Assembly: GCF_000091045.1 (NCBI RefSeq)
Contig: NC_006682.1
Coordinates: 148,501 to 212,500, forward strand
Reading direction: 5' to 3'
Source: Cryptococcus deneoformans JEC21
Lineage: Eukaryota; Basidiomycota; Tremellomycetes; Tremellales; Cryptococcaceae
Length of the DNA stretch: 64,000 bases
The number at the start of each line of letters is the position of its first letter. The stretch's first letter is position 1. Shown here in pieces: positions 12,083 through 51,338 of this stretch. The position numbers and the translations under genes were made by a program. Under the pieces are notes generated by a model. It was given only the letters and a program-made list of their open reading frames with translations. It searched no databases and had not been told where the DNA came from.

Positions 12083-12582
12083 TGTAAGTGCAGAGCCCTT
12101 ACCACCATTCATTCTCACCATATGGTAGGATTTATTCCTATGCATTGGTCGATGTTGGTAAGGTGAGATTTGATGCCGAAACGCGTCTTTCGGACTTCGC
12201 CGAAACGCGGCATCGGCTCTGTCCGGCCTTATCCTATGCATGATATTTTATTCTCATGCATAGGACCGGCAATTGCTGCCGAAACGCGGCGGCGGACTTC
12301 GCCGGATCTCTGCCCCTTTTTTTCGATGGACTTCTGTTTGTTTCTGCATACGTCCATACATATATATATATAGATCTCATACATAGTTATAGTTTTCTCT
12401 TTCTCCAAGCGAAACTCATGCATATCAACCATTGCTAGTTTCGCATCCAGTAGACCACTATAACTATAAACAAACACCGAACGCTTCCTCGAACGCATCC
12501 GAACGCCCTCTAGACCTATACCACGAACGCCCATCCTTCTCGAACGCCAACCGAACGCAGTGAGGCACCCCCAGTGCCTACA
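12083..12582 (+). repeat. D-type LTR, 3' LTR of E3
   Basis: It starts TGTAAGTGCAGAGCCC and ends CCCAGTGCCTACA. A polypurine tract precedes it, and sequence of the broken element E2b follows immediately. It carries a (TA)n run near 12360. Confidence 0.87.
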
Positions 12583-16592: not shown

Positions 16593-16748
16593 CCCTCCCC
16601 TTCCTGAAAAAGGCCATGGTCTTGGAAGAAAAGGCGAGAGCAGGAAAAACTAGGTAAAAAAATAAGTGGGGTCCATTGGTGAAACAACTAGGCTAAAGGG
16701 TAATAAGTGGGGTCCATGTTTGAAAGAAGAAAGAAAAAAACATCAAAA

Positions 16749-19700
16749 TTACTCCAACAACAACTCATCTGGGCCATCATACACCTCCCACGCGGCCTTG
16801 AAACCGTCCCATAACTCGACTTCAACTCGGGGTAGCCACTTGCCAAGGGCTGGCTCACCAACTAACTGGACTCGGACCTCCTCAGTGTTCTTCCTGGTGC
16901 GGATGTCAAGGACCTCGAGGACCTGGGGGCGAGGTGGAGCTGGGACTTGGGGTTGGAGGGGAAGTGACGAGGAATGATAACGTTCAGAGACCACGTAAGG
17001 CTTGAGGAGGGAGACATGGCGTCGAGCGGTGTCATTGGCGCGAGCAGGGACATCGAGTTCATAAAGGGATTGATTGGGAAAAGCTTTGACAATAGTGTAA
17101 GGACCATCATAATGTGGGATGAACTTAGCAGAATTTTTGAAGCCTGATGAGGACTTGTATTCATGCCTGACATGACGGGTGTTCACCAGCACTTGGTCAC
17201 CGACCTTGTAAATGGGATCAGGCCGGCGATGTTTGTTGGCTTGAACTGCTTGTCGATGTTTGGCCATGAGGAGATTGTCTCGTGCTTCCCCTTCGTCGAG
17301 CCGCATACGCCGAGCTGCTGCTTCCCATTCGTCTTCCGAAGGTACCATGAACTGCAAGGCTTCGGCAATTTTCGCTGGAGTGTCAGCCACCAAGGGAGGA
17401 ACATGAGAGAGACGCTTGCCAAAAACCAGCTCGGCAGGAGTGTGCTTGGTTGATGCGCGGACATGGTTGTTGAGAGCGAAAGCAATGCGCTGCAAATGGT
17501 CAGCCCATGTACGCCCACGGATGTCAGTGAGGGTTCGGAGCGACTCGATTACTGATTTGTTGGACCGTTCAGAGATACCATCAGTCTGGGGGTGATATGA
17601 TGTTGAAAGCATAGACTTGGTGTCGATATGCTTGGTGACATGACGCCAAACCCCAGACTGGAAGATGCTACCGCGGTCAGAGACGATGGAGCGAGGGCAG
17701 CCGAATTTGGAAAGCCAGTGGTCGTAAAAAAGTCGGGCAACCTCTCGCGCATTTGCTGTGATGGTGGTAGGAATGAGGACCACATAACCCGTGAGGCGGT
17801 CAGTGATGACAATGAGTTGGTCAAAACCTTGCGACGTGGGGAGAGGGCCCACGAAGTCAATGCCAATGTCGAGAAACTTCGCCTGTGGAACTGGTAGAGA
17901 GTGAAGGCGGCCTGCGGGCTTGACAGTAGTGCTCTTGGAAGTCTGACAGGGTGCACACGAGCTTACATAGTCCACAACATCCTGCCTCATGCCCTCCCAG
18001 TAATAGCTGCGGCGCACCATCTCCAATGTCTTCGCTACGCCGAAATGGCCCACATCATCATGACACTGGCGGATGAAACCTTCTCGGAGCTCACTGGTAT
18101 CGGGCACACATAGCCTGCCTTCCCATCGCAACACCTGATGTACTCCTTGACCATTCTCAACATTCTCCAACGTTACTCCAGGTGCCCTATCCTCCTCTTG
18201 CAACCATGCTCCCATGACCTGATCTTGAGCGTAGCCTTGCGCGACCTTGGTGATGGTGGATGTGTCTTGGCCGAGGAGACCGAGGACTGCTACACTGACT
18301 TCAGCTGTCTCCATACCATCCTGCTCATCGTCGACGCCGCCAAGCCGAGAGAGGGCATCTGCGATGAAGTTATTGACACCTGAGATGTGGTCAATACGCA
18401 AGTCGAACCGGGATAGGACACCCAGCCAGCGCTTTTGGCGTTCGGATAGGTCGCGCTGTTGGAGGAACCATTTGAGAGTGAAGTGGTCGGTCTGAACTTG
18501 AATGGGGACATCCAGAAGGAGAGGCCGCCAGAGTTTGAGGGCACGGACGATGGCCAAGAGTTCTTTCTCATGTGTTGGATAGTTGCGTTCGGCGGCTGAT
18601 AAACTGCGAGAGTCGTAAGCAACTGGAAATGCATGATCGGGGTCAGGGCCTTGACCAAGCCAGGCGCCAGTGCCGTGATTGCTTGCATCAGTGAAAAGGT
18701 AGATGGGGCACTCGCCGGATAACGCAGCTGCATAGTCCAATGGCCGGAGGCCAGAAATCTCCGCCACTTTCGCCTTCAGAATCTCAAACGCGGCGGTCGC
18801 TTCACTAGACCATGCCCAGACCCATGACAGGACATCCTTGGGGGACTGGCCCTTCCGGAGTGCACGCTGTTGCTTCTCCCAGGCTTTCTCGGCAGCTGGA
18901 GTCGGCGGGAGGAGGGCAGTGAGGGTTCGTGTGTGGGTAGCTAGGCTCGGTATGAATTTTCTGAGGTATTGAAGGAGGCCTAGAAAGGATCGCAGCTCTT
19001 TGACGGACTGAGGGAGCGGCCAGGAGGCGATGGTGCGGAGTTTGGCGGGGTCTGGGCCGATGTGGTTGGTGGATATCACGTGACCAAGAAATTTTACTTT
19101 GTGGCGAAAAAATTCAGACTTGGTGGGAGAGCACACAAGCCCCGATTTTCGTAAGGCAGCCAGCACTGCTCGCAACCGTTTGTCAAGATCCTCGGCATCA
19201 GCAGCCCAGACAATGATATCATCAACATAAGCCTCACAAGAATCCCCCAGCAACCCACGGAGGGCCTCATTTAGTCGGCGTTGTTGAGTAGCAGGTGAGT
19301 TGCAAGCACCTTGTGGCATAACTACCCATTCAAATAGGCCGAGTTCGGTAGTAATGGCTGTTTTTTCGATGTCTGGTTCATGCATAAGTGTTTGGAAGAA
19401 GGCATCAGACAGGTCAATTTTGGCAAAGATTTTACCACAAGCAGCTCGATGGAGGATGTCGTCGACATTGGGAACTGGTGTGGAGTCTGGAGTAGTGACT
19501 TTGTTAAGGCCCCGATAATCACAGATAAACCGAAATTTTCCATTCTCCTTCTTAACCAAGAACGCCGGTGCTGCCCACGGCGAACTGGAGGGTCGCAATC
19601 GGCCAGCCTCCCGATGTTTCTGGATCTCTTCAATTAACTGCTGTCGCCACATGTGAGGGGATCGATAACTCGCGGATTTGAAGGGTATCGCACCGGGGGT

Positions 19701-20453
19701 GAGGTTGATATGGTGGCGGACCTTTGAGTTGGCATCACAGATCGGTGGGTAATTTGCAACTTCACCAATATTGTCTGGGAAAATGTCGTGATACTCATGC
19801 AGGATTGCTAGGCGGAAGTCATCATACCCATCAGCGATCGTCACTGAGGCAACCACGGGGCCAAGGAGGTCAGGAGCGAGATTGCCTAGCCGAGAAGCAC
19901 CGCTGAGGAGCCCATGAGAGCGGATGAAATCCAGGCCTAGGATGACTTTATAGCAGGCATGTAGGGGCATGACATAACCATGTAGTGCGAAGACTTGATT
20001 CTGGATGCATACCTCTACTCCTACATGATGTTGTAAAGCTGGACCCCGTGCTCCTCCTGCTAACGATACCACCCGCCGTTGCTCTGAGGGATAAGTTTGG
20101 AGTTGGTGGGTGGTGATGAGGGACAGATCAACTAGAGTGACTGTTGCTCCTGTGTCGAAGAGGGCGAGGAAGGGTGACCCATTAGTGCCTATGCGACATT
20201 CGAGAAGGATGGGTGGGACTGACAGCTCCGGCGCAAGGTGTGTGGCTAATACCTCGGCAAACATCTCCCCCTCCTCCTGCTCAAATTCCGCTTCCTCATG
20301 GTCGAAGGTGCTTACAGCAGCGATTGCCGTGGGTTCCTTGCGCTTTGGGCAGTCGGGAGACTTGTGACCGGGTTGGCGGCAGAGGAAGCATCGCTGTTCA
20401 CTGGCAAGGTGAGCTCGAGCGCGGCGACCAGCACCACCCTTGGGGAGCGGAAG
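16749..20453 (-). CDS. Element C Pol region (in frame with Gag after a UGA)
   Basis: The frame continues directly from the Gag stop at 20454-20456 with no further stop until 16749. The first internal ATG is at 20262-20264, so either a readthrough or a separate start produces Pol. Order: CCHC knuckle just after the UGA (CFLCRQPGHKSPDC, about 20380), protease with ALFDTGA (about 20160), reverse transcriptase with YVDDIIVWA (about 19220), RNase H with LFTDASNHG (about 18680), integrase zinc region, core with GIDFVGPLP, VSDRG and ISERSN, a DGPYTIV module, and a chromodomain-like C-terminus ending in DELLLE. All catalytic motifs are present. Confidence 0.93.
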   Translation of the reverse strand, partial: LPLPKGGAGRRARAHLASEQRCFLCRQPGHKSPDCPKRKEPTAIAAVSTFDHEEAEFEQEEGEMFAEVLATHLAPELSVPPILLECRIGTNGSPFLALFDTGATVTLVDLSLITTHQLQTYPSEQRRVVSLAGGARGPALQHHVGVEVCIQNQVFALHGYVMPLHACYKVILGLDFIRSHGLLSGASRLGNLAPDLLGPVVASVTIADGYDDFRLAILHEYHDIFPDNIGEVANYPPICDANSKVRHHINLTPGAIPFKSASYRSPHMWRQQLIEEIQKHREAGRLRPSSSPWAAPAFLVKKENGKFRFICDYRGLNKVTTPDSTPVPNVDDILHRAACGKIFAKIDLSDAFFQTLMHEPDIEKTAITTELGLFEWVVMPQGACNSPATQQRRLNEALRGLLGDSCEAYVDDIIVWAADAEDLDKRLRAVLAALRKSGLVCSPTKSEFFRHKVKFLGHVISTNHIGPDPAKLRTIASWPLPQSVKELRSFLGLLQYLRKFIPSLATHTRTLTALLPPTPAAEKAWEKQQRALRKGQSPKDVLSWVWAWSSEATAAFEILKAKVAEISGLRPLDYAAALSGECPIYLFTDASNHGTGAWLGQGPDPDHAFPVAYDSRSLSAAERNYPTHEKELLAIVRALKLWRPLLLDVPIQVQTDHFTLKWFLQQRDLSERQKRWLGVLSRFDLRIDHISGVNNFIADALSRLGGVDDEQDGMETAEVSVAVLGLLGQDTSTITKVAQGYAQDQVMGAWLQEEDRAPGVTLENVENGQGVHQVLRWEGRLCVPDTSELREGFIRQCHDDVGHFGVAKTLEMVRRSYYWEGMRQDVVDYVSSCAPCQTSKSTTVKPAGRLHSLPVPQAKFLDIGIDFVGPLPTSQGFDQLIVITDRLTGYVVLIPTTITANAREVARLFYDHWLSKFGCPRSIVSDRGSIFQSGVWRHVTKHIDTKSMLSTSYHPQTDGISERSNKSVIESLRTLTDIRGRTWADHLQRIAFALNNHVRASTKHTPAELVFGKRLSHVPPLVADTPAKIAEALQFMVPSEDEWEAAARRMRLDEGEARDNLLMAKHRQAVQANKHRRPDPIYKVGDQVLVNTRHVRHEYKSSSGFKNSAKFIPHYDGPYTIVKAFPNQSLYELDVPARANDTARRHVSLLKPYVVSERYHSSSLPLQPQVPAPPRPQVLEVLDIRTRKNTEEVRVQLVGEPALGKWLPRVEVELWDGFKAAWEVYDGPDELLLE

Positions 20454-21350
20454 TCATGGGTTGAGCCATTGAGCAATGTCGATGGGCGAAGACGCTTCGG
20501 GCGAGACAGCAGCGATCGGCGTGCGGGTGGGCGTGATGGGGGCGAAAGCGGACTGGTAGCGAAGGAGTCTGGTGGCACAGATTTCCATATGCTTGAGAAG
20601 TTTAGCTAAACTGGCCTGACGAAGCTGATTCTCACCACCAAAGTCCCGTTCAAGCTCCGCCAAAAGACCAGGTGTCATGTGGTTTCGCAGCCAGTGTGTA
20701 GCAACGTCTTCGGACATGGGGCTGTCGGAATCCTTCAGGAGGGCGAACCACTGTTTGAAATCCATGATGGCCAATGGGATTTTGTCAAGTCGGAGGAGCT
20801 GGGGTTGAAGAGAATAGATTTTCTGTTCGGTCTCGGATACCCAGCCGAGCGGAAGCATTGCAGACTTGAAAGCTTTTGCCCAGTCATCAAAGGTGCGACA
20901 TTGGAGGCCATCACCTTCGAGAAATTGAAGATGGCGGATACCAGTAAGAGACTGGGCGGCGTGGGCGAGCTTGCGGGCCTCAAAAGCGGTGGGTTCATAG
21001 CGGTAACCAGCGGCCATGAGGGTAAAGATGCTGCGAAGCTTCGAGATGTGTTGGTGAATAGCCGCTGCGTCGGCATGTTCAGAGAGGACTGGAAAGGAAT
21101 ATTTGGGTTGGGGGAGAGAATCATACATAATAGGAGGATGAGGGGACTCTGATTTGGCAGGTAAGCTGGAAGTGGCAGGATTGTGCGGAGGGAGGTCGCG
21201 CTTCTCGGCCTCGCGTTTGAGAAGACCTCGCATTTGTGCTTGTAGCTCCGCCATTTCGCGCTTGTGCTCCTCTCTCTCCCGCTTTCTCTCGTCCTCTATC
21301 TGTTTGATCTTCCTCTGTAGGGATTCCTTGTCTGTAGGGGGTGTTGTCAT
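20454..21350 (-). CDS. Element C Gag (capsid part)
   Basis: 298 codons from an ATG at 21348-21350. The N-terminus is a charged coiled-coil-like stretch rich in Lys, Arg and Glu. The middle resembles a retrotransposon capsid (Trp- and Leu-rich helices; LATHWLRNHMTPGLLAEL-like region). The expected CCHC knuckle is not in this product; it lies after the TGA stop, in the same frame. The stop may be a programmed readthrough site or a C-to-T change of a CGA arginine codon. Confidence 0.88.
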   Translation of the reverse strand: MTTPPTDKESLQRKIKQIEDERKREREEHKREMAELQAQMRGLLKREAEKRDLPPHNPATSSLPAKSESPHPPIMYDSLPQPKYSFPVLSEHADAAAIHQHISKLRSIFTLMAAGYRYEPTAFEARKLAHAAQSLTGIRHLQFLEGDGLQCRTFDDWAKAFKSAMLPLGWVSETEQKIYSLQPQLLRLDKIPLAIMDFKQWFALLKDSDSPMSEDVATHWLRNHMTPGLLAELERDFGGENQLRQASLAKLLKHMEICATRLLRYQSAFAPITPTRTPIAAVSPEASSPIDIAQWLNP

Positions 21351-21475
21351 TTCGGGGAATGGTGTATCTTGCCGAAGTCGTGGTTTGGATTGATCTTCAA
21401 TAGGTGTAATGGTGTCAAAAAAAATTTTCTGGTGGCTCAGCAGAGCTCATGCAGTTGAGATTCGCTTAAAAAAAG

Positions 21476-22064
21476 TGTAACAACCCAGGGGGGATGTTCA
21501 CTGAAAGAGTTCGGCTTGATTTGATTGAAAGAGAGACGGCTGGAACACGACTGTTGTCTAGTCGGTGGCAAGGAAAGAGGTAGTTGGATTGTCCGGGCGC
21601 AGAAGCGGTCTATGAGTTTGCATATGTTTGTTGATCACTGGGCAGAGTGTCAACGAAGCTATAATTAAAGCACTCAAAAGAACTACAGCAGGTCGCGGAC
21701 AACCAAAGGAAAAGGGCTCTCTTTCTAAAGATAAAGAAGAAGTTACAAGCATACCTGGGCAGAGTGTCAACGAAGCTATAATTACTAAAGTCCGCCCAGT
21801 TAGCATAAAACCACAATCCAAGTAGGAAGTGGGACTCACAAGCACTCAAAAGAACTACAGCAGGTCGCGGACAACCAAAGGAAAAGGGCTCTCTTTCTAA
21901 AGATAAAGAAGAGAGGCTTTTCCTTGCTGCAAATTCCTTTGAGGCCTGTGAGGAGCGCGCAAAATAAACGGAATCAAAATAAGAGAAAAGCGGCAGCAAA
22001 TCTATGTATGAAGTGAAACAGACCTTGGGATCATAATGACCGTGTTTGGCATGCATGCCTTACA
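21476..22064 (-). repeat. 5' LTR of element C
   Basis: 589 bp; the same sequence as 16004-16592 as far as I compared. The Gag ATG is about 126 bp inside. Confidence 0.95.
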
Positions 22065-22725
22065 ATGATGAGAGGTACTGACCCAGCGAGCGCAGACGAG
22101 GCATCCTGTACTAGAGTGTCTGTGACAGGGTCGACAGCGAAAATGCCGTGGTGGTCGGACTCGTCGTCGTCGGCAAGGGAGACGAGGTTAGCGACCGGCA
22201 CGGACGCGGAGGCGTTGGGCGGGGTGGAGGGGGGGCGGGTTGGGCAGATAAGGCGGTGATGGCCGACAACGCGGCATGAGAAACACGCGTTGATGCTTTG
22301 AAGATAGGCGCGGGCGGATCAGCCGGCGTCACCGAGGGGGAGCCGTTTGGCGGGGTCGAGCCAGTCGAGCTGTTGCGTAGTGTGGCCCTTCGTGGTGGTG
22401 GAGGGGGCGGGGGCGAGTTTGGCAATGAGTGGAGGCGCGGGGACGGGAGCGATGACGTTGGCGACGGTTGGTGGGTGGCGGGGGCGTGTCGGCACCTGAA
22501 GGAAACGCGCCTCAAGCATGGCGTCATCGATGACGTCCATCATGATCTCATACAGGTCGGCCGACGTTGCGGAGAGCACTGTTTTGCCACGTGCGCGGAG
22601 AGCAGCTTTGGTGTGGTGAGTAACCAAGGCATCGACACCGTCCAATAGCCGGCGGTTGACGTCCACGTCGCTGAGGGGGTCCTCGAAGTCATGAAGAATG
22701 CCTTGGTAACTGATAACAAGGTGAA
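22065..22725 (-). pseudogene. E2b gag fragment 1
   Basis: Matches E2a near 8630-9286: the CCHC knuckle region and part of the capsid. It is cut on the left by element C and on the right by a solo E2 LTR. Confidence 0.9.
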
Positions 22726-23668
22726 TGTAAGAGGCTAGCCTCCGACCCAGTGACCCACGGTCACCACTTTTCCCAGCTTCTAATTTCGAGCCGCATTTCA
22801 ATTTGCTTCCGCTTCTTCCACCAAGTTGCGCGCGTCAAATTGCATCCGCGCTCCCTTTCCCAGGTCACGTGCTTTATTTTTCCCCTGTTTCTCCGAGCCG
22901 CGTCTCAATTTACTTCCGCTCCTTTCCTCCAAGTCGCGCGCGTCAAATTGCATCCGCACTCTCCCTCCCAGGTCACGTGCATCATTTTACTTCCGCTTTT
23001 TCTCTTCTTGCTTTCTCTTCCATTTCTCGTCCTAAGTCCGAGTTTCTTGTCCGATTTTTCATGCCACAAGCCCCGGTGTTTACCGGGCTTTGGTCGCGAC
23101 TGGTTTCGAGAGCGAAGGCAAAGTGCATGGAAAGGTTGACACACAAATTCCTTTATTCTTTTATCCTTGTTGTGTTCAACCTTTCCTTCTTCCGACTTTA
23201 CAGTCACAAGTACCTTGCCTTCTCCTCTGTAAGCAGAGCTCTCTACTAATCACCTTCTCCCCTCAGACCCCCTGGCTAATCCTGATCAGTGTTCCTATCA
23301 ATTCTTCATCTTGTCTCCTTTACTAGTCGCTGATAGGACATAATCAGGTAAGCTTCGGGCTCTTTGGGTTACACACAAATTCCTTTATTCTTTTATCCTT
23401 GTTGTGTTCAACCTTTCCTTCTTCCGACTTTACAGTCACAAGTACCTTGCCTTCTCCTCTTGTTCCTATCAATTCTTCATCTTGTCTCCTTTACTAGTCG
23501 CTGATAGGACATAATCAGCATATGCATTTGGGATCTTGTTTGCTTCTCTCCAGTCCGAAGTTAAGCCTCGAGCCCTGCCAGCCCTAAGAGCCCACCAGTT
23601 CTCTCCAAGCCTTGTCCCTCCGAGCTAGCCCCAACAGTACAGTGAAGGTCTATTGTCCGGACCTTACA
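22726..23668 (+). repeat. Solo E2-family LTR, plus orientation (943 bp)
   Basis: It starts TGTAAGAGGCTAGCC and ends GTCCGGACCTTACA, opposite in orientation to the LTR at 10118-10828. The target duplication is GTGAA (22721-22725 and 23669-23673). It is longer than the 711-bp form because a block around 23139-23346 is repeated around 23371-23519. Confidence 0.94.
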
Positions 23669-24092
23669 GTGAAAGAATGCATCGAACGCGGCGGGTGTGG
23701 TGTCCAAGCAGCGGAGCTGCATGAATCGGTGGCGGAGTTTGGACTCCCAGCCGAGGGCGAGAATGTGAGACTTAAGGGAGACTTGCCATGCATCCCAAGT
23801 CTCGGCGTGTTTGCCATGGAGCTCGAGCCATGTGGTAAAACGGCCGCCCGATTGGGAGATCGAGGTGTTTGCCACAGAAATCTTCCACGCGTGCTCAGCC
23901 GGGCCGGGGCTCCAGTGTAGGAGGGCGTCACGGAAATAGGTCTCCAAAGCGAGGAGGTGTCGCTGGAGTGCGAACGGGTCGGCAGGGGAGTGAGTCCCAA
24001 GTCGCGGCGGAGAGATCTTATCCGGGCGGGACCCACGTGTAGAGGGGGGGACGTGACGGTCGTGGCCGGTGGTGGCTTGATCGGCTAGCGCT
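23669..24092 (-). pseudogene. E2b gag fragment 2
   Basis: Matches E2a near 9287-9709 and encodes the capsid part of Gag with an open frame. It ends abruptly at an inverted D-type LTR fragment. The 5' end and 5' LTR of E2b are missing. Confidence 0.88.
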
Positions 24093-24343
24093 GTCCATCA
24101 AAAAAAAGGGGGCAGAGATCCGGCGAAGTCCGCTGCCGCGTTTCGGAAGCAATTGCCGGTCCTATGCATGGGAATAAAATATCATGCATAGGGCAGGGGC
24201 CGGACAGAGCTCGATGCCGCGTTCCAGCGTAGTCCGAAAGACGCGTTTCGGCATCAAATCTCACTTACCAACATCGACCAATGCATAGGAATAAATCCTA
24301 CCATATGGTGAGAACAAGTGGTGGTAAGGGCTCTGCACTTACA
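24093..24343 (-). repeat. Truncated D-type LTR, inverted (left arm of a hairpin)
   Basis: Reverse complement of the first 250 bp or so of the D LTR at 24658, with its TGTAAGTG end at 24343. It is truncated after GATGGAC. Together with 24658-24908 it forms long inverted arms. Confidence 0.9.
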
Positions 24344-24657
24344 CCCTTCGGCAAGAAATCGAGAAACACCGTACCGCAGGCCGCCTCCGTCCATCCAGTT
24401 CCCCTTGGGCCGCCCCTGCTTTCCTCATTAAGAAAGAAAATGGCAAATTCCGGTTCCTCTGCGATTTTTGCGGCCTCAATAGTGTTACGGTTAAAGATCG
24501 AACCCCGGTTCCCAACATTGACGACATTCTCCAACGCGCCGCCCGTGGCAAGGTTTTCGCCAAACTCGACCTTACCGATGCATTTTTTCAGATGCTCATG
24601 CACGAGCCTGATATCGAGAAAACGGCAATCAGCACTCCCTGGGGTTTATACGAATGG
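24344..24657 (+). pseudogene. E2-family reverse transcriptase fragment, inverted
   Basis: Encodes on the plus strand a piece of the E2 reverse transcriptase from EIEKHRTAGRL to STPWGLYEW (E2a near 7700-8010). It is opposite in orientation to every other E2 piece except the solo LTR at 22726, and lies exactly between two inverted D-type LTR ends. Confidence 0.9.
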
Positions 24658-37830: not shown

Positions 37831-39316
37831 TCAAGACGAATATCCGTTAACGTTGCTCGACTGGAATCGCCAAAGATCTTGACACATCTCCTGCAGACCT
37901 CTGCGCGCGATGAATCCAAGCTCTTCTTGCGCTAGTCGAGGGTCGGCTGTCAAGTCCGGAACATCACCGGATCTGGAACGCGCAATTTTAACTTCATTCG
38001 AAAAGGGTTGACTAACCTAACTTACCTTCGTTCCACGATTTCGAACTGGTACTCGTATCCTGTTGCAATTTTCATCTCGTTGATCATCTCAAGAACGGTG
38101 ATGCCCTTACCCCTTCCGAGGTTAAATGCGCGGAAATACCCTTCCTTTTTTGTATCAATCGATTGGAAGATACCTGAGCTTTGAGTTTTGATTTCCGACT
38201 TGGCGAGAGCGTCAAGCGCGAGGAGATGGCCCTCAGCAAGGTCCATGATGTGAAGATAATCCCGAAGGCATGTGCCGTCTCTGTGATTACACATCGTCAG
38301 AATCGATTAAGATCAAACAGCACGCATAACTCACCTGGTTGGGTAGTCGTTCCCGAAAACCTTGAGATCAGATGACAATCTCCCCACAGCGATCTGAGCT
38401 AGAATTGGGAGGAGGTTGCCTGGGCGGCCCTTGGGCTCTTCTCCTAGCTTGCCGGACGGATGAGCCCCAGCTGGGCTGGGCGTGACGTTAGCAAGGCTCA
38501 CAGCAGTGGCAAGGGACATTCTCTCACTTACTTGAAATACCTCACGCTTATCGCTTTGAGACCTTGATTGTCAGCCGTGGCTGCGCCAGCCCGGCAGACG
38601 TCCCGGATCACTTCCTCTGTGATCGCCTTGGTACGCCCGTACACGGATTCAGGTATGATCTCGGAGGTCTCGGGGATTGGAATCACTGCAGGGGTGCCGT
38701 AGACGGTAGCGGATGACGAGAAGACGAGGTTGTTGGTTTGGGATTGTTGCATAATCTGAAGCTGCCGATCAGCTTTGGCCAATAGTCTGGACAGTATGAA
38801 CATACCTTCAGTAGCGAGATTGAACCCCCAACGTTGACCTCGTAATAATCTAACGGAATCTCACTCGACTCTCCCACTGCTTTGAGTGCGGCTAGGTGGA
38901 TTACCGCCCATATTCCGCCTTTTGACTGATATTGCTTGAACACCTTGTTGATCTCTTCCGCGTTACGAATATCGCATTGGTGGTAAAGGGGTTTGGGAGC
39001 ATGTGGGCTATTGAGGATAGAAGATCAGCCACGCCAGTCCATGCTATGTATGTGAACTTACCCTACTTCGCTTTGGGCTATTTGATTGCAGCGCTCGAGA
39101 GCTTGAGGGTATGCGTTGTGCGCGTTGTCAATGACAATAGGCAGGTAGCGACCAGACATCAGAAGGGAGAGGACAACGTGAGATCCTATGTATCCGAGTC
39201 CACCGGTGACAAGGACATTCTGTACGACAATTAGCTTTGCCTTTGTCGTAATAGAACGACCTCACTTTTAGAGGCTCTCCAGGGACAGATACACTTGATG
39301 ATGATGTTTGGGTCAT
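37831..39316 (-). CDS. UGE2: UDP-glucose 4-epimerase (galactose cluster)
   Basis: Interconverts UDP-galactose and UDP-glucose, the last Leloir step. The gene has about seven exons on the minus strand; ATG at 39314-39316, stop TGA at 37831-37833, product near 375 residues. Motifs: NAD-binding GGLGYIGS in the second exon, [19 protein letters not shown], and the catalytic YGRTK (YxxxK), then [11 protein letters not shown] across an intron and [13 protein letters not shown]. It is an epimerase domain only, without the mutarotase domain fused in Saccharomyces Gal10. It is divergent from GAL1, with an array of eight GAACGGGAAT-type motifs and a TATAAAA box between them. The symbol follows the galactose-linked Cryptococcus paralogue; whether it is UGE1 or UGE2 cannot be proved here. 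Confidence 0.92.
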
Positions 39317-39426: not shown

Positions 39427-39433
39427 TTTTATA
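39427..39433 (-). promoter_or_regulatory. UGE2: TATA box of UGE2
   Basis: TATAAAA on the minus strand about 110 bp upstream of the start codon. Confidence 0.6.
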
Positions 39434-39493: not shown

Positions 39494-39727
39494 GAACGGG
39501 AATACCCAGAATTGGCCCCGAGCACGAACGGGAATCTTGCCCAAATAATGCTTTTCATCGAACGGGAATCTCGAGGATGGGCAATTCTGCGAATGGGAAT
39601 GTGTAGAAGAGGGAGCGATGAAGGGGCATTTTGCGAACGGGAATGTGTTGAAGGAGGGGAAGCGATGAACGGGAATTCAGCGACGAACGGGAATTCTGTT
39701 GCATCGATGATGAAATCAAACGGGAAT
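39494..39727. promoter_or_regulatory. GAL motif array 1 (UGE2/GAL1 promoter), 8 copies
   Basis: GAACGGGAAT at 39494, 39526, 39560, 39635, 39667 and 39685, with one-base variants GAATGGGAAT at 39591 and AAACGGGAAT at 39718 (first-base positions). All are in the same orientation, reading ATTCCCGTTC towards UGE2. Many neighbours are 31-34 bp apart. Confidence 0.85.
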
Positions 39728-39950
39728 AATTGACTATTTCTTGCCAGAAACGGGAGTCCGGAGTCCGGATCGTTTGTCGGGGGAGTGTCCGCGTGCATTT
39801 ATTCAGGGACAATTCACAGCGAACCACACAACCTTCATGTCGATTTGTAAATGTCTTTCGAAATGTAGATAGAAACTTTTGCAAGTATACGTTGGCACCG
39901 TTGCCAGCGGGGTCGGAAAGACTGCCCACCTAATCCAGACAATGAAGCCG

Positions 39951-39960
39951 CTATTTATAT
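39951..39960 (+). promoter_or_regulatory. GAL1: TATA-like box of GAL1
   Basis: CTATTTATAT about 50 bp upstream of the GAL1 start codon. Confidence 0.5.
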
Positions 39961-40005
39961 CACTCACAAAGCCGAGTCGACGGTCTTGTTTTCCGCCCGT
40001 TTATC

Positions 40006-42003
40006 ATGCTCAAAATGGGTTCGGAGGAGCTACGACCTATTCCTGCTTTCCACAATCTCAGCGAGATTTATAACACAGAGGAGACTCTTGAGCGGGAGAG
40101 GTACGCTGTTACGCAGATATAACAAAATCGACTGGGCTGACACTGTATTTGTTCATCACAGGCAAAGGTGGAGCGCCCTAGTTCAAAGTTTTGTAGAAGA
40201 GTTTGGCGGGCAACCGAACTATATTATTCGAGCACCGGGCAGAGTGAATGTGTTAGGAGAGCATATAGATTACTCTCTCTTTGTGAGCATCGTCAAGAAT
40301 CCCCGAACTACCACGCTGATGCATATACATACGCTTAGCCTGTACTGCCCGCGGCAATCGAACAGGATATTATCGTTGGGATTCGCCCGACTGCAACGTT
40401 TCCAAACAAGATCTCCGTTGACCTCGCCAATGCCGTCAAGTCGTATCCAAACGCTGAGCTCCAGCTTGCTCGTGATCAAGAATTGTGGTCATTAAAGGTA
40501 CCGCTTCCAAGCAAGGCGAAAGGGTGGGAGCGATACGTTGTCGCTGTTTTATTAGAGTGTTTGGAGAGGTTTGCGGAGCAATTGCAAGACGGAGCTGCGG
40601 GCATGGAAGTCATGGTCTCTGGTACGGTGCCTGAAGGAGCTGGGCTGAGTGTAGGTAACCCAATTCTCTCCAAGGGTCTTGCTGATAGTTTACAATTAGA
40701 GCTCGGCGGCTTTTGTTGTCGGCATCATCGTGGCATTCCTTGTCGCCAATGGTTTACAGGAAGGAGTGAGCAGGGTGCAAGTTGTGGATATCGCCATGGC
40801 CGCAGAACACCGCTTGGGGCTCAAAAGCGGTGGTATGGACGTAAGCACTTGCCATTGCTCTCTGCCGGACGTCAGCGTTTAATTTAAATAATATAGCAAG
40901 CCGCTTCTATCCTTTCTGTCCCCAACAGCTTGCTCCATCTTTCCTTTTATCCGTCTCTCAAACCCGCAATACTTCCTCTTCCTTCGTCACTCACATTAGT
41001 CATTACCAACTCGATGGCACCTCACTCTCTAGCCGATTCTGCTCCAGACCGCTACAATCTTCGAGTCGTTGAAAATCTTTGCGCTACCCGTATCCTGCTT
41101 CACACCTTTGGTGCGGATGCGGGTGTTCTCTCCACGACGCAGCGAGGATCTACCGGTCGACTTTGGCTCCGTGAGGCGCTTGAACATTGGGCAGAGGATG
41201 CTCACATGGATGAGGAAACTGTTTATCGGAATCTGCTCGCTCGTATTGTAGGAGTCCTTGGCAAAGAAGGTCGCGACAAGAATGGTTGGACCAAAAATCA
41301 GATGATTGAAGAAAGCGGTATGACAGCAGAAGACTTTGAGGCGACGTTCTTGGCGTTCATTCCTAGTGAGTACTCTGTTAAAAGACTTTGGCCGGATTTT
41401 GGCTGAACCTTGCATTCACAGTCCGTGCCACACGGTTCTACCTGTTGCAGCGGGTACAGCATACGCTCGAAGAGTCACTTCGGGTCTGCAGCTTCAAAAG
41501 GCTTTGCGAGGCGTCGGTGGCCACATCTGACAACAGAGTCAGCGAAACCGGTCTTGTCAAAGAATTAGGCGCGTTGATCACCGCTTCTCACGTATCAATG
41601 AGAGATCTTTACGAGGCCACCGTGCCAGAAGTGGACGACCTTCAAGCACTTTGCTTGCAATGCGGGTCGTTAGGATCGCGTCAGACAGGTGAGCAGATTT
41701 GCCGTTGATAAAGGGAAGGCTGATGAATGGGACTACACCATTAGGCGGTGGATGGGGAGGCGCCGTGATTTCTCTTCTCCCGTCGAATCGGGCTAGTGAT
41801 TTCCTCAGAGAAGTCAGGAAGATGTATAGCCTTTATAGGGGTCTTTCAGTAGATGAGTTAGACAAGGCTGCGTTTATAACCGTTCCAGGATCAGGCGCTG
41901 GCTGTGAGTTAATTTGCTGCTGTTCTGCCTTTCTCGCCACCCCGTACTGACGCTCTGATCCTGCACAGTCTATCCATTGATGGAAGGCTGCAAGATAGTG
42001 TAG
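40006..42003 (+). CDS. GAL1: Galactokinase
   Basis: Phosphorylates galactose to galactose-1-phosphate (GHMP kinase family). The first ATG is at 40006, with a second in-frame ATG at 40015; stop TAG at 42001-42003. Introns are GT...AG and short, for example 40283-40338. Motifs in order: [12 protein letters not shown] (galactokinase signature), [20 protein letters not shown] (ATP-binding motif, split by an intron), and [13 protein letters not shown] near the C-terminus. The C-terminus PGSGAG...GCKIV follows a final intron. It lies between UGE2 (divergent) and GAL7 (same strand). I see no sign of loss of catalytic motifs. No Gal3-like regulator or Gal4-type site is visible nearby. Confidence 0.97.
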
Positions 42004-42301
42004 TGAAGTCGTATTATCTCTGCAATGTAATTCTCAATGCCATGCATATGCTTGCACCTGTGCCTTCTCTTTAGTCGACAGCACTGACAGTCTCTCGGAA
42101 AGTGTCGTTGCGAGAGCCATGCATGTATGTTTCCATGGTTCGGGCGCATGTTTCTTACTTAAATATGATATGCAAGTAATCACACATTTGTCCGCCGGTG
42201 GAAAGAAGCAGGTCTTGTCGAACCCCGGGGATGCGACAGCAGAGGTTCGAACACGCAAAATCGTAATTTGATATTTATATGCGCGCCCACCTTCGCTGAC
42301 A

Positions 42302-42616
42302 ATTCCCGTTCATGAATCGTTTGTCAGTAATTGACGCGCCGGGGGTGCCTTGGGGGAGTGTTGTCAATTAACATACAAATATTCCCGTTCGTATCAATTT
42401 GCATATCCATCTCATCACATAGTAGTATTCCCGTTCGTATCCATTTGCATATCTCGTCACATAGTCTTCCCGTTCGTATCCATTTCATATCGTAACATCA
42501 TACAGTCTTCACAATCTTCCCGTTCGTCCTCTCATCGTCAAGCCATTGATTGTCAATACACGCCTACATATTCCCGTTCTCTTGTCTGCCACATCGCTCG
42601 TGCGTTCTTCCCGTTT
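42302..42616 (+). promoter_or_regulatory. GAL motif array 2 (GAL7 promoter), 7 copies
   Basis: ATTCCCGTTC at 42302, 42381, 42427 and 42570; CTTCCCGTTC at 42466 and 42516; CTTCCCGTTT at 42607. All read towards GAL7. The last copy is part of an inverted repeat CTTCCC...GGGAAG. A TATATAT box lies at 42670-42676. Confidence 0.85.
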
Positions 42617-42664
42617 TTATGGGAAGACTGGGGTCATGTCGTCAATACAGCAGCAGACATAATG
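42515..42664 (+). repeat. Promoter block shared with the alpha-galactosidase gene (copy at GAL7)
   Basis: About 150 bp from TCTTCCCGTTCG to AGCAGCAGACATAATG align, with few differences and near-equal length, to 48501-48653. Confidence 0.88.
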
Positions 42665-42761
42665 GGTGTTATATATGTCGAGTTTCACATCTGGCTGTAC
42701 TAAGATATCCGTGACCCACTTTCACAACGATCACTTATCAGCGCTCAATCCCCTCTTGAGA

Positions 42762-44386
<1,625 letters not shown>

Positions 44387-46066
44387 GCTCACAATACATA
44401 ACTCAGTTGTTGTCTCGAAGCATGTACTGTAGTTTCCAGTCTTCATTCAAGTTCAAAGATCCGTACTCTGTGCAGCTGGTTCCTGCTGGTATTGGCTTTC
44501 TTCTAAATATTTGTAATGGCGGCTGGCCGCTGTAACGACATTGTTTGACAGAGTTTCATAACAAGTTGATAGCTAACGGTGCCTCTCCTACGTAGAACAG
44601 ATTGCATCTTGGTTAAAAAAGAAACAGCGTTTTAATCCTGTGCATCTGCAAAGACGAAACAGGTCCATCTTTGTCTGCAGTACCAGGTTTGCACATCACA
44701 TGGTTGCTTGAGTAACTCTCATTCTCTCTTGTCTTCCCTTCTAGGGCGTCCATTCCATATTCTACGCGCCTCACAGCGAACCCGAGTAATTGTTCGCCTT
44801 TTAATCGACCCGTTGTAGTGCAATGAGCTTTCGGCCTCATAGACTAATGCCACATCACAGTCGGAAGCTACCGCCGGTGACAGTGTGAGAGAGAGAGAGA
44901 GAGCGAGAGGAGATGGATTAGGATACAAGAAAGGACTATAGAAGAAACTACGAGAGGCTGTGACAGCAACTACCTCTTCCATGGGTAGCTGCCAAACAGC
45001 TTACGGAGATTCTAAGTACATAGGTACATAACTGTTAGTTACGCCCATGGAGCCTATATTGCTATATTGTTTGATACACACACAACACACAACAACAACG
45101 AAACTCGACATGAGACCCGAGTTCAACTATACCACTACACAACCTAACGACCTATCGTCAGTATCACTACTAGGTAGATCGACCGCCAACAGCCAAACCT
45201 AGGACAGCTTTGTATTCCGTAGAATTGATACCAAGGAGTCGATATTCTGTTATCTGCTGTGGGTGGAAGCGGAACGGAACCAACAACTGGATCGTTTAAC
45301 CAATAGGAGACCCGGGTATTTCCCTACACCGTCCTGAAGATTCGGACTGACGGAACAAGACTCAAAACGGGATAAACACCCAGGCATTTACTGATCGTTC
45401 GGATCGTTGACTCCTCAGGGTGGATATCACTAGTAGGTTATATCGACTACAGGCAGTATTCGGCTAGGTCGGATCATCCCGACGACTTCGGGACAATTGG
45501 AGTTGAGGTAAAGTTTGGCTAGTCGGTATAAGGAAAACACAGACAATTTTGGTAGAGAGAATGTATCAAACTAAGATCATCGAGGAATCCTTTGTCGCAT
45601 TTCATCAGAGAGCACCATATTTATTAAGGAGAAAGCTGTTTTTAAATCGTTTGTGGATATTCCCATGTCAGCTTTTTCATAGGCTTTGGAGGCGATTATT
45701 ATTGATGGCGGCAGAAATCTTTTCGACACATTACATGGCCGTAATACTAAGGCAGGGCAAGTAAAGAGCGCCTTTCTGATGGGCCGCCTCGCCTCTCTTA
45801 GTGAATCCGGTCAGACCCTCATGGCCTCATTGCTGCGCGCCGTGATGCAATGCTCGCTCCTTTAGATTCATAATGCCAAATAGGTCCGTTGCCAACAAAA
45901 CCGTTCGGCATTCGAGCTGATGAGGGCTACAGTGTGACAAGCGGAACATACTTAATTTACATTCATACAATACTCGTACTACCGGACCGAACAATTCCGA
46001 TCGTCCGCACTCCGTTTCTGCTTTTATTGCGTTCCTTCCTACCTTGTTTGCACACATGTGATCATA
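44387..46066. other. Intergenic between convergent GAL7 and permease genes
   Basis: About 1.7 kb with no supported gene. It contains a short (GA)n run near 44888-44908 and an (ACA)-rich stretch near 45075. The GAL motif is absent, as expected between two 3' ends. Confidence 0.55.
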
Positions 46067-48033
46067 CTACGCATTCTCCTGATATTCTATCTCTCCCTTC
46101 TCAGTGTATTTCTCTTCAGTCACTGCGGAAAGCTCATCAACGATAGTGTGCTTGAATTGCCGAGCCGGTACTTCATTTGCTGTAACGGTGACGTGATCAG
46201 CCATATCCCAATATTTTGAAAAGGCCTCACTCACCAAACAGCACATCCAACTCGCTGAACATTCTACCTTTGGTCTCGGGAAGTCGGAACCATAGGTACA
46301 CCAAGGATATGAGACAACACCCCATCCAGAAGAAGCTGGACTTGGCACCCCAGTTCCACTCTGAGACGGAGAACATTCGAGGGGTGATCTGATTACAAAT
46401 GATTGATGAGATGAGGTAGACTCCTCTGCCGAGGACCATGGTCTTTGCTCTGACACGAGTAGCGGGAACCTCTGCCGCAATCGTGTAGGTCACGGGGAAG
46501 AAAGTTGCATTGGTGGAAAAGTTGATGATGACCATTACAATGCCAATTGCAAGGGTGGCTTTGGTCGAGTTGACAGTTCCAAGACTTCCAATGATGACGT
46601 GCCAGACTACCATCAGGGCGACTCCTGCGATGTAAATGGATCTTCGACCGAAGTGATGCATAGTGTACCAGCACGCAGCAGTGCCCACGATGTAGCAGCA
46701 TGTGATGCCGAGGAACATGTTGAAAGCGCCATCTTCAGTCATTCCGCCGGTCTGCAGGCTGTGTCATTGATCAGCAGGGTTTGCAAAATGCGCAGTATGA
46801 ATCACACTTACTACTGGGTGGCGTAGTTGATGATGTTTTGGCCGGACCAGTACTGGATAATCCATACCAGCATGACCTAGATTTGTGTAAGGGTTGATAC
46901 GCTCCTTTAATGTGATGTAATGGGACACTTACAATTTCAGTTCGACGCAGATTGGAACCTTTGAAACAGTCTAAGAAAGAAGCGCCTTGAGTTTCTGCTT
47001 TCTCCATTTCGATGGTATGTTTCATGAGGGCGATTTGTTGATCAACGAGCTGATCGGTGAGGTATTCAGATGGTGCAAGTCGCTTAGTAGTCGCTCGGGC
47101 GTCGTCTTCGCGGCCGACTTTGACAAGGTACCAAGGACCTGCAGTTCCATGAAACCTGTGAGCGATCGTATGGATCCAGGGGTGGCAATGCACTCACTTT
47201 CAGGAGCGAAACACGCAATGACGAACAATGGTACTGGCCACACCCATTGAATCATGAAAGGGATTCTCCAGCCCCATTGACTGTCTAGCTCGAGAGAGGC
47301 CCGAACCACCCCAGCAGAGAGCAAGAGTCCAAAGCCCCAGCACATGTTGACAAATGCGGTGAGGTAACCTCGCATGGCAAGAGGACAGATTTCGGCAGCG
47401 TAAGCGGTGGAGAGGGTTTCTATGGATGGTTAGATGAGCACATAATACCCCATGTCAGTGTATATACTTACGGAAGATACCCCATGGGATACCACACAGG
47501 ATTTCACCTCCAAAAAGCATGGGCAACGAAGTCGAAAACACTGGAAGGAAGATAGTCCCTACCATCACGGCCATGGCAGTCAAGTAAACTTTTTTGGAAC
47601 CAAACTTGGGTTGTGCCCATCCGTTGATAGCTAGACCGATCATTTGTCCGATCGAGGTCGCGTTGTTCAACGCAGCTTGCCAATTGGCAGGGATATACTT
47701 CGTTCCATCCGCAGCGGTACTGCCGAACTTGTTCAAGAAGGAAGCCTGACCCCAGAACGAGTTGATCTGAGTGAGGCTGTCAGTACAGTATACAATGGTC
47801 AAGCGATCATAACTCACGATGCCGACATCATAGCCCTCCATTACAAGAGCAAGGGAAAGAGCCATGGACCACAAAGCAGCTTTGTAGTAAAGTCGGAAGG
47901 TCTTTTTGAAGCCCAGTTCTTTCTCTGCAGCTGCCGCCGAGAGTGCACTCTGCACGAGCGTTGGATCAGCATAGAAAAGCTGCTCGGCATGTTTGCCGGC
48001 AATACGGGTTGTCTTGTCGCTGTGTGACAACAT
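46067..48033 (-). CDS. MFS sugar permease, maltose/alpha-glucoside type
   Basis: Proton-coupled sugar importer of the plasma membrane (inferred from family). ATG at 48031-48033, stop TAG at 46067-46069, about six introns, product near 540 residues. Motifs: ALVMEGYDVGIV at the first helix, NGWAQPKFGSKKVY (loop 2-3), MRGYLTAFVNMCWGFG, HHFGRRSIYIAG, EVPATRVRAKT and RLPETKGRMFSELDVLF at the end of the transmembrane core. The ELDVLF ending is typical of fungal alpha-glucoside permeases rather than hexose carriers. It shares a divergent, motif-rich promoter with the alpha-galactosidase, so the likely substrate is an alpha-galactoside such as melibiose or raffinose, or galactose itself; this is inference. 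Confidence 0.9.
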
Positions 48034-48083
48034 GAAGAAAATAAGGACTTTGATAGACCATAGACCATGTTGGAAAAGATCGG

Positions 48084-48090
48084 TTTTATA
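48084..48090 (-). promoter_or_regulatory. TATA box of the permease gene
   Basis: TATAAAA on the minus strand about 50 bp upstream of the start codon. Confidence 0.55.
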
Positions 48091-48353
48091 TGTTTCTGCC
48101 TCCAGGATAAGATAGGGCCGATCGGGGGCTCCAGCAGAACGAACTGATAGAAATCACTGATCATATGATGGTATTGTTCGGGATGTGATAAGGCAGATCA
48201 GGTACTGCAGAGGAACGAATTGATAAAATCACTGGTGTGGAACTGTCCCCGATTGGACGAGCGTCACATGGACGGTGTCGGCAACTTTTTTTAGAAAAAT
48301 AAACAGTCGGAATCGGGGGAAAAGTTGCCGACCAAGTCCCTGCGCTGCGCGAC

Positions 48354-48602
48354 ATTCCCGTTCATAAATCGGTGTTGTCAATATAACACACGGGTATTCC
48401 CGTTCGTATCTGACAATTCCCGTTCATAAATCGTTGTTGTCAATATAACACACGGATATTCCCGTTCGTATCCCGGCCATTTAATATCGCCTCATCACAG
48501 TCTTCCCGTTCGTCGTCTCATCATCAAGCTATTGATTGTCAATACACGCCTACATATTCCCGTTCTCCTGTCTATCACACCATTTGTGCATTCTTCCCGT
48601 TT
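48354..48602 (+). promoter_or_regulatory. GAL motif array 3 (permease/alpha-galactosidase promoter), 7 copies
   Basis: ATTCCCGTTC at 48354, 48396, 48416, 48458 and 48556; CTTCCCGTTC at 48502; CTTCCCGTTT at 48593. The first four lie in two tandem units of 62 bp (48354-48415 and 48416-48477). A TATATAT box at 48788-48794 serves the plus-strand gene. Confidence 0.87.
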
Positions 48603-48653
48603 TTATGGGAAGACTAATAGCGTCATGTGGCCACTTCAGCAGCAGACATAATG
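48501..48653 (+). repeat. Promoter block shared with GAL7 (copy at the alpha-galactosidase)
   Basis: Aligns to 42515-42664 through the sequence GATTGTCAATACACGCC and on to AGCAGCAGACATAATG, in the same orientation relative to the gene. Confidence 0.88.
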
Positions 48654-48853
48654 CGTAGTAGTGTCCAAGGCTAAGTCCAAGGCTAAGGAAGACAGCTGAT
48701 CGGCTGGAAAGACTCCGACGCGGATTGAACGATCGGGAGCTCTTTCATTTCCGCCGGAAGAGTAGGCCGGTAGAGAGTGATCAAGACTATATATGCCCGC
48801 ACTCCCCCCCCACCCTTGTGTACATTTGGCTTTCACAGCAGACTTGCAGCGAC

Positions 48854-51338
48854 ATGATTAGCGTGCGACTCAATGAGTACAACCTTCCTGAGGGAAAGGA
48901 CGAGGACAAGGTCAGCTTCGACCTTGCTGAACTTGACAACTTATCAGACTGGTCCGGCTGGGCGTTTTATCGCATTGCGTGAGTGTTTACGAATCATTCA
49001 GAAGGTTACCTGACTATAATGCACAGGCCCACTTGGATCGAAGCCCGACCGCTTGACAATGTCAGTCTGCTGTCTAATCAGCTGACAACTCATCTGCTGC
49101 TCGTGAAGCGTAAATCTCAGCCCGATCATATTGCTTGCGTTTATCCTATTTCATCCTCCTCCGCCCTCAGTAACATCGTAAACGATAATGGCGATATCAA
49201 AGTACAGCTCAGACGAGCAAAGGGAAATAGTGATGCGAAAGCAGCTGTTGTTATTGGGACGGCGTCAGACGCTAGCCAGTTGAACTGTTTGATTGGGGAT
49301 GTGGTGCGAACAGCAAGAGGTTGGCTCCTTGACGTACCAGCAAAAGAAGTTGTCGATTTCAAGTCTTTTCCTTCTGGCGGACCGCTCGATGGCGTAGGCT
49401 TCTGTACCTGGAGCAGTCTAGGAGAGGGTGAGTGACATAAGCCTGGCGTACAACTAACTCTTTGGATAGATATTCGTCCTGATAGAGAAAACATGTCAGG
49501 GTTATTTAATGCCCTTACGGATCACAATCTGCCTATCCAATCGTTCATCCTTGACGACGGCTGGCTCAACCAAAAAACGTATGAGAAAGGTGATTCCTCC
49601 CCTTTCGTATCCACGACAGGGCCCGAGGAGGAGCGAGGGACATGGCAGTTGAGAGGATTGTACGATTTTGACGCTTGGTCCGGGTTGGGTCATGATGGGA
49701 TCAAAATGATAGTGGACGAAGCGACAACTCGTCTCAGTAAGATTGACGGCGTTAAAGACACCATTCAAGTGGGAGTCTGGATGTCGTGAGTAATGGAACC
49801 TCAGATGTCGAACATATGTCTGATATATTTCTCTAGTCTTGTCGGAGGATATTGGGACGGTATCTCACCAGACTCTCCCCTCATTGCCAAGTACAAGTGT
49901 CGGCCATACCCGGCCTCGCGTGCTCGTCTCCCTGGTATATCTAACGAACCTTTCACCGTGGGCTTCTTACCCGGTGGTAAGGGAACCTACTGGCTTCCAC
50001 CTCCTTCCGAGTCACTCAGGTTTTGGCGCGATTGGTTCAACTACCTAAAGTCTCAAGGTGTGGATTTCCTCAAAGTGGACAACCAGGGCAGTATGAGTCT
50101 TGTGGACGGGACGGAAGGTGTCGAATGCCAGCATGCGATCTGGGAGAATATGGTCAAAGCTTCAGATGAGGTGTTCGGAAAGGGCAAAGTGATCCATTGC
50201 ATGTCGCACCATGAAAGTATCTGGGGTGGCATACAAGGCCTGGGAATTGTGACTGAAGGCGAAAAATTTGTCTGGCGGTGAGCACGAATACGTTATAGTC
50301 GCAATAGCATCTGTCGCTGACTAGCAAGTCGACCACAGAAATTCCGATGATTTCGGTCTGGGACACAAAAAGGCGAATGCGCACCAACAACACATCTTCA
50401 CCAATTTGTCAAACTCTCTTCTCACTTCACATCTCGCTATGATCCTAGACGCCGATATGTTCATGAGCGCAGAGCAAGATCCCGTCCCACACGCCTTTCT
50501 TCGAGCACTTTACCCGGGACCTTTGCTCCTGAGCGACCGACCTGGCATACATGACTCCCGTCTGTTAGGCAGAATGATTTCCAAGGACAAAACTGGCATC
50601 GCGCGGGTGATTAAGACGCAGCATCCTGCAGTTCCTTTGAGTCACCGAGCTCTCGATATCGATGTGATTGGTAAAGGCGAGGGTTCTGGTCTCTACGCAG
50701 CTGCTCCTACTGAGGCAGGAGTCATTCTGGGTGTTTGGAATGTTCGAGAGGATAACGACAATGGTCGAGTCGTCGACAAATTGACTTTTACAGATGTCAA
50801 ATACGCTTTAAACGGAAAGGATATGTCATCACCGTGGCTTATTGTGGAAAGTGACTTGGAAAAGGGGGGCATCAGCCGAACTGGACTCCTATCCTCGTCG
50901 GACGCAGTCATCACCGACATTGTCCTTGAACGAATGAAAGCGGCGAGTTTCTGGCTAACTCCCCTCAGGCCTGTAAACAAGGTAGGGGTTGCTGTGCTCG
51001 GCTTGACCAAACATTTCGCCGGTCTAATGGCGGTGACCGATGTCCAAAGTAACGACAGTGAGTTTGAAAATTACTCTTCGAGTGAAGAGTACCCGCTGAA
51101 AGATGTCTTAGCCCGAGTGACTGCTCAGGTCAACGGAGAAGGTACATTCGGATTTGTCGTCGTCTCGTCCCAGCGACCAATGTACACCATCCACGTGGAT
51201 GACCAAGTACAGGATGCCACACTCGCCTTAACTCCAAGTTTCCACGGCGTCGATAAGGTATGGTTGATAGAAACCGAAATACGGGCAAATGGAACCAGAG
51301 GAGACGGATGGACGGTTGCGATAGATATCTTAGGCTGA
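48854..51338 (+). CDS. GH36 alpha-galactosidase / raffinose-synthase-like enzyme
   Basis: Hydrolyses terminal alpha-galactose, probably in the cytosol. ATG at 48854; exon 1 is 48854-48978, intron 48979-49026; stop TGA at 51336-51338; product about 730 residues. Motifs: VGFCTWSSLGE, FILDDGWL, LKVDNQGSM (the Asp after Lys-Val is the expected nucleophile), CMSHHE, and a RNSDDFG join over an intron (expected acid/base Asp), followed by MILDADMFMS and LSDRPG. These are the blocks of the raffinose-synthase/alkaline alpha-galactosidase (Sip1-like) part of GH36. No signal peptide is seen, so it acts on sugar imported intact. It shares a promoter region with the permease. Raffinose synthase activity is a possible alternative to hydrolysis. 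Confidence 0.9.

Follow-up and report, generated by a model that had tools for sequence, protein, structure and literature searches.

Arrays of a 10-bp Word in the GAL Cluster Promoters of Cryptococcus deneoformans as Candidate Upstream Activating Sequences

In Cryptococcus deneoformans JEC21, five genes form a GAL cluster: UGE2 (minus strand), GAL1 (plus), GAL7 (plus), an MFS sugar permease gene (minus) and an alpha-galactosidase-like gene (plus). Here, we have analyzed a stretch of 64,000 nucleotides that contains this cluster (hereafter the window; C13:148501-212500 of a 19,051,922-base genome in 14 contigs). Each of the three promoter regions of the cluster was found to contain an array of the 10-base-pair (bp) word ATTCCCGTTC, with 22 sites in total (8 + 7 + 7) if close variants are counted, and these arrays are probably upstream activating sequences of the cluster that are read by a putative galactose regulator. 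The presence of the arrays, their confinement to the cluster, their strand bias, their layout relative to TATA boxes and the duplication of one promoter block can be read directly from the DNA, and the functional reading is built on these features.

GAL regulation is a textbook genetic switch. An array found only at the cluster may provide a handle on how a basidiomycete wires the GAL pathway without a common Gal4-type site, and the array word could serve as bait for the regulator of the GAL7 promoter, an inducible promoter in use in Cryptococcus laboratories.

Structure and Consensus of the Arrays

Array 1 (39494..39727, minus strand) comprises eight sites between UGE2 and GAL1, all of which face UGE2: six exact copies of ATTCCCGTTC, ATTCCCATTC at 39591 and ATTCCCGTTT at 39718. 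A weaker additional site, CTCCCGTT, is present at its GAL1 end (39749..39756, minus strand), and the CCCGTT within it belongs to a match of three such words. Array 2, upstream of GAL7 (42302..42616, plus strand), has seven sites facing that gene (42302, 42381, 42427, 42466, 42516, 42570 and 42607), including four exact copies, two CTTCCCGTTC and one CTTCCCGTTT. Array 3, between the permease and alpha-galactosidase genes (48354..48602, plus strand), also has seven sites (48354, 48396, 48416, 48458, 48502, 48556 and 48593), all facing the alpha-galactosidase gene and comprising five exact copies, one CTTCCCGTTC and one CTTCCCGTTT; each CTTCCCGTTT site has two mismatches to the 10-mer. The site counts of eight, seven and seven given in a first-pass annotation of this DNA are right once close variants are included, 15 of the 22 sites being exact.

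When strand is assigned by the core of the word, each array occupies a single strand, and all 22 sites point away from GAL1 and the permease gene. The position matrix of these sites reads mTTCCCGTTCg, in which TTCCC and the later TT are invariant, the G is found in 21 of 22 sites and the following C in 19 of 22. On the opposite strand, the site reads GAACGGGAAk (GAACGGGAAT) and contains a CGG half-site, retained in 21 of the 22 sites. Arrays 2 and 3 each end in a site that forms one half of an inverted element, TTCCC-N8-GGGAA (42608..42625 and 48594-48611, respectively, both plus strand). The top-ranked 6- to 10-mers common to all three promoters overlap the array word.

Confinement to the Cluster

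All 15 exact copies of ATTCCCGTTC in the window are located inside the arrays (six, four and five in arrays 1, 2 and 3, respectively). Allowing up to one mismatch, 27 sites were detected compared with 4.41 +/- 2.20 in shuffled sequences (largest shuffle, 10); the arrays hold 20 of these, and the other seven are scattered. Of the 22 copies of the core TTCCCGTT in the window, 21 are in the arrays and one is at 59546. The first-pass annotation had not noticed the motif in the convergent gap (44387-46066), the Yip/YPT6 promoter or the flanking housekeeping regions. No further exact copy is present in the window, and the convergent gap contains no core TTCCCGTT and two isolated CCCGTT words.

The exact 10-mer was found 52 times genome-wide, 15 times here and 37 times elsewhere, and the reversed word used as a control 50 times. 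Because the control is equally common, the 10-mer is not over-represented outside the cluster, and its single copies there, which are scattered except for one close pair, resemble background. It is clustering, rather than single-copy frequency, that sets the word apart. Although repeat counts from the genome search are lower bounds, at least 19 pairs of TTCCCGTT on the same strand, separated by 6-66 bp, were detected, of which the cluster holds 16 (reversed-word control, 4), and opposite-strand pairs with gaps of up to 60 bp are absent genome-wide. Moreover, when the genome was searched for three CCCGTT words close together on one strand, all eight matches (some of them overlapping) fell in the cluster. 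At the outside rate, the arrays (804 bp) would be expected to contain 0.0016 exact copies, compared with the 15 observed, a difference that overstates the evidence because the arrays partly grew by tandem duplication and two of them are homologous. Every promoter of the cluster carries the same word in far greater numbers than background, and the genome-wide count that the first-pass annotation had proposed as a check supports its operator reading, with arrays confined to the cluster and outside copies at the control level.

Position Relative to Core Promoters and Paralogues

A TATA or TATA-like box is present 54-117 bp upstream of the start codon in all five genes: UGE2 (39428..39433, minus strand, -117 from ATG), GAL1 (TATTTATA, TATA-like, 39952..39959, plus strand, -54), GAL7 (42670..42675, plus strand, -92), the permease gene (48085..48090, minus strand, -57) and the alpha-galactosidase gene (48788..48793, plus strand, -66). 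TATAWA occurs eight times in the three promoters compared with 2.7 expected. The arrays are located upstream of these boxes and outside coding and 3' regions; based on the listed coordinates, the distance is approximately 60 bp for UGE2 (from the nearest array site) and GAL7 (from the last site), and approximately 190-265 bp for the alpha-galactosidase gene, GAL1 and the permease gene. This layout suggests that the sites probably lie upstream of the transcription starts, which would favor an upstream activating sequence over a function within the 5' leader. Unclustered paralogues, named here by best match, have no such array: TTCCCGTT is absent from the stretches around UGE1 (5.5 kilobases, kb) and GAL101 (6.0 kb), and that around GAL701 (7.0 kb) contains one copy, 3.95 kb upstream of the matched exon.

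Position upstream of a TATA box suits a repressor as well as an activator, and sites for the two look alike by sequence. It is conceivable, if unlikely, that the protein bound at the arrays is not the galactose activator but a repressor or chromatin organizer involved in glucose repression or nucleosome exclusion, induction being achieved by derepression or through other sites. The GAL7 promoter, which is described as glucose-repressed and galactose-activated (PMC11302930, passages), is off in glucose, as such a repressor would predict. However, arrays would be expected at many genes if a general glucose repressor or chromatin factor were involved, whereas in the searches made here they are confined to the promoters of one pathway. 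Furthermore, Mig1/CreA-like sites are separate from the arrays: when factor consensus sequences were counted in the three promoters, SYGGRG was found nine times compared with 10.0 expected, and a stricter Mig1 form five times compared with 3.0, four of the five in the GAL7 promoter. A 10-mer, GGGGGAGTGT, has two copies in the window (39779 and 42352), one in each of two GAL promoters, and is possibly a Mig1/CreA-like site.

Duplication and Divergence of the Arrays

Tandem repeats overlap the arrays, with periods of 44 and 18 bp in array 1, 39 bp in array 2 and 62 bp in array 3, and a homologous block of approximately 200 bp (81% identity) is shared by the promoters of GAL7 (42467..42667, plus strand) and the alpha-galactosidase gene (48459..48656, plus strand). 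No third copy of the block was found in the genome at E <= 0.001; the GAL7 promoter matched only the second copy, plus two short stretches adjoining that copy. Such repeats and such a block would also be expected if the arrays had no function in regulation and had simply been left behind by local tandem duplication and a single promoter duplication, an explanation that we regard as improbable. Array 1 has no homologue in the genome besides itself at E <= 0.001, and at best it matches the other two promoters over short local stretches (up to 32 bp) that include the word. Mean identity between the flanks of its sites is 27% (median 25%, 28 pairs), at the level of chance on average (26% from composition), whereas the core is constant in seven of the eight sites; a constant word amid changing flanks is the pattern predicted for a selected word. 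In addition, duplication alone could hardly have made different sequence converge on one 8-mer in all three promoters of the cluster, with no comparable array found elsewhere in the genome. Within the shared block, all 32 motif columns are identical, compared with 137 of 158 ungapped columns outside the motif (Fisher p 0.016, a modest result).

Arrays 2 and 3 share common descent through duplication of the promoter block, and array 1 either had a separate origin or has diverged until little except the sites was left. The fully identical stretch of the block also contains TTGATTGTCAATACACGCCTACAT. Another word, TTGTCAAT, is found at five places in the GAL7 and alpha-galactosidase promoters and nowhere in the UGE2-GAL1 promoter; it was rejected as a second shared motif because it follows the former two promoters only.

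Proposed Mechanism

From these features, we infer that a single factor binds the arrays and activates the cluster in a galactose-dependent manner. Each mTTCCCGTTCg site would bind one subunit of a sequence-specific factor, for which a Zn2Cys6 protein acting in monomeric form is the most plausible candidate; CGG is the usual contact of Zn2Cys6 proteins, and such a half-site is present in the array word when read as GAACGGGAAT. An array offers seven to nine sites in one orientation, spaced by 18-79 bp and approximately 60-270 bp distant from the TATA or TATA-like boxes downstream. Several weakly held subunits might thereby act jointly, such that galactose or an alpha-galactoside would switch on the five genes as a unit. 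With two of the promoters divergent and the third single, three arrays would serve five genes. The Mediator protein Ssn8 has been reported to be required for normal growth on galactose (PMC3084776, passages).

The first-pass annotation had proposed that the arrays are the operator of a GAL regulon. This reading is supported in part: it fits the confinement of the arrays in the searches made here, their position upstream of TATA or TATA-like boxes, the finding of no array around the unclustered paralogues and the constancy of the word, while binding, galactose dependence and the factor itself keep the standing of proposals. A more specific scheme, which we put forward tentatively, is a basidiomycete switch that arose independently of Gal4, with a dedicated factor, same-facing monomer sites, an array regulon that coincides exactly with the five-gene cluster, and arrays that were built twice, by copying of a block between the GAL7 and alpha-galactosidase promoters and by separate build-up between UGE2 and GAL1.

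Several observations speak against an activator array. The spacings between sites share no common helical phase (p 0.30 for all arrays and 0.07 for array 1). Reversed-word controls gave four genome matches in the triple search and four in the pair search, so a few such word clusters arise without a regulatory cause of this kind. Tandem duplication accounts for part of the copy number and, to some extent, for the uniform strand within arrays; therefore, site counts are not independent. One flank pair of array 1 (39592/39636) is 73% identical, the conservation of motif columns in the shared block is only modest, and the Zn2Cys6 assignment is suggestive, its single basis being the CGG in the word.

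Other Types of Binding Sites

The motif had been described as unlike the CGG-N11-CCG site of Gal4, which is true of the word itself; nevertheless, three such spacings are present in two of the three promoters compared with 0.5 expected (one in the UGE2-GAL1 promoter, at 39751, and two in the permease/alpha-galactosidase promoter, at 48314 and 48701), which makes the contrast slightly less sharp than described. It is very doubtful that the actual switch is a Gal4-type dimer at these sites, with the arrays in an assisting role, considering that the galactose-inducible GAL7 promoter (PMC11302930, passages) has none and that the window holds 18 instances of this bare spacing. For the same lack of CGG-N11-CCG in one GAL promoter, the array was rejected as a Gal4 upstream activating sequence.

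Among the other types, sites of the Rgt1 type (CGGANNA) are not enriched in the three promoters (3 compared with 4.8 expected), and the CSL (CBF) site GTGRGAA is absent from them (0.9 expected). The XlnR site GGCTAA occurs twice (0.5 expected), both times within one 12-bp tandem repeat, and CACAAA (Ndt80) also twice (1.2 expected). GATA is found ten times (3.7 expected), five of them on the permease side and outside the array. Mig1, Rgt1, XlnR, CACAAA, CSL and GATA sites were all rejected as the common array, as none of them forms one.

Gene Cluster and Its Setting

UGE2 (37852..39316, minus strand, start codon at 39316, lower end approximate) encodes a UDP-glucose 4-epimerase and contains introns; it was assigned by a Pfam Epimerase match and open stretches, and a paralogue at C1 is 65% identical over the exon tested. 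GAL1 (galactokinase, with introns; 40006..42002, plus strand, both ends approximate) has a 12-residue stretch in its translation that we take to resemble the galactokinase signature, and no Pfam match was obtained in the two exons tested; its assignment is based on this stretch together with a published gene set (PMC8022950, passages). GAL7 (42762..44386, plus strand, end approximate), which also has introns, encodes a galactose-1-phosphate uridylyltransferase (Pfam GalP_UDP_transf, 6.1e-23). The MFS sugar permease gene (46067..48033, minus strand, lower end approximate) matches Sugar_tr (8.3e-17 and 2.6e-12), and the alpha-galactosidase-like gene (48854..51338, plus strand, end approximate) belongs to the Raffinose_syn/SIP1 family (Pfam Raffinose_syn, 2.9e-06 and 8.7e-08).

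The start of the alpha-galactosidase-like protein (48854-51338) has no obvious signal peptide, as judged by eye; hence, the permease may import alpha-galactosides for cleavage inside the cell, and such an alpha-galactoside might be the natural inducer. A nest of Ty3/gypsy-type long terminal repeat (LTR) retrotransposon copies, in direct and inverted repeats, occupies positions 4500-24500 of the window. In Cryptococcus, centromeres are marked by such LTR retrotransposon nests, so the GAL cluster may lie approximately 13 kb from one.

The same five genes have been described as a cluster, along with the unclustered paralogues UGE1, GAL101 and GAL701 (PMC8022950, passages), and independent origins of GAL clusters have been reported for several lineages of fungi (PMC10218983, passages). 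An antisense transcript was reported at the UGE2 locus of C. neoformans H99 (PMC3990503, passages).

Pairs outside the Cluster and a Candidate Factor

Only three of the 19 same-strand TTCCCGTT pairs are located outside the cluster (C4:446450, C6:567246 and C8:284238), not more than the four of the reversed control. Based on open frames, the C4 pair is inside a 184-amino-acid frame, and the C8 pair, judged by eye, seems to lie between gene ends. The C6 pair consists of CTTCCCGTTC sites (L029:4947-5011) approximately 1.56 kb upstream of a gene in the same sense (L029:6569-9519), whose product has a Zn_clus match above the Pfam cut-off and a Fungal_trans match of 20.5 bits, below the cut-off of 23. 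A 9-mer search gave 214 sites genome-wide. There are 37 Zn_clus matches in the genome. The proximity of this pair to a Zn2Cys6 gene was noticed post hoc, and by rough arithmetic its probability by chance is a few per cent.

A protein named C. gattii shares 90% identity with the C6 protein, which has relatives across Tremellomycetes (best 8000 candidates scored). The GAL cluster has been reported as lost in the C. gattii clade (PMC8022950, passages), with which a review conflicts, crediting C. gattii with the cluster (PMC10218983, passages). Retention of the C6 gene where the cluster is reported lost speaks, though not decisively, against a dedicated GAL regulator. The C6 gene is the one lead to the factor, and a weaker one because of this retention.

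Comparison with Known Systems

To our knowledge, no factor is known to bind the array word. Among the open-licence matches listed (titles, abstract openings and passages), neither a description of the array motif nor a known regulator of the GAL7 promoter was found, and the motif may already have been described in the original promoter studies of 1995 and 2009. The former (Wickes and Edman) names GAL7 in its title and concerns a galactose-inducible promoter of Cryptococcus, and the three galactose-inducible promoters of the latter (Ruff et al.) are said to be those of GAL1, GAL7 and UGE2. If so, these promoters overlap with arrays 1 and 2, and array 3, between the permease and alpha-galactosidase genes, widens the set to all five genes of the cluster.

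The Rtg1-Rtg3 complex has a role in GAL regulation in Candida albicans. The putative system described here resembles Rep1-Cga1 and Rtg1-Rtg3 of that yeast in placing the GAL pathway under a regulator other than Gal4. The C. albicans Rep1 motif determined by chromatin immunoprecipitation sequencing is reported to be adenine-rich (PMC9925049, passages). It differs from the array word, and CACAAA (Ndt80) has two copies in the promoters studied here compared with 1.2 expected.

Rgt1 and AlcR, two Zn2Cys6 regulators of fungi, bind to promoters with multiple sites in monomeric form. The arrays are similar to their targets in consisting of short CGG-containing half-sites; unlike in Rgt1 targets, the Rgt1-type word is not enriched here. 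Gal4 of Saccharomyces cerevisiae acts on several copies of one site, UAS-GAL, between divergent genes and upstream of TATA, with cooperative induction. The Cryptococcus arrays share with it a multi-copy site in GAL promoters, located between divergent genes and upstream of TATA boxes, and probably cooperative induction, but they are composed of a non-palindromic 10-bp word on one strand, whereas the Gal4 site is the palindromic CGG-N11-CCG.

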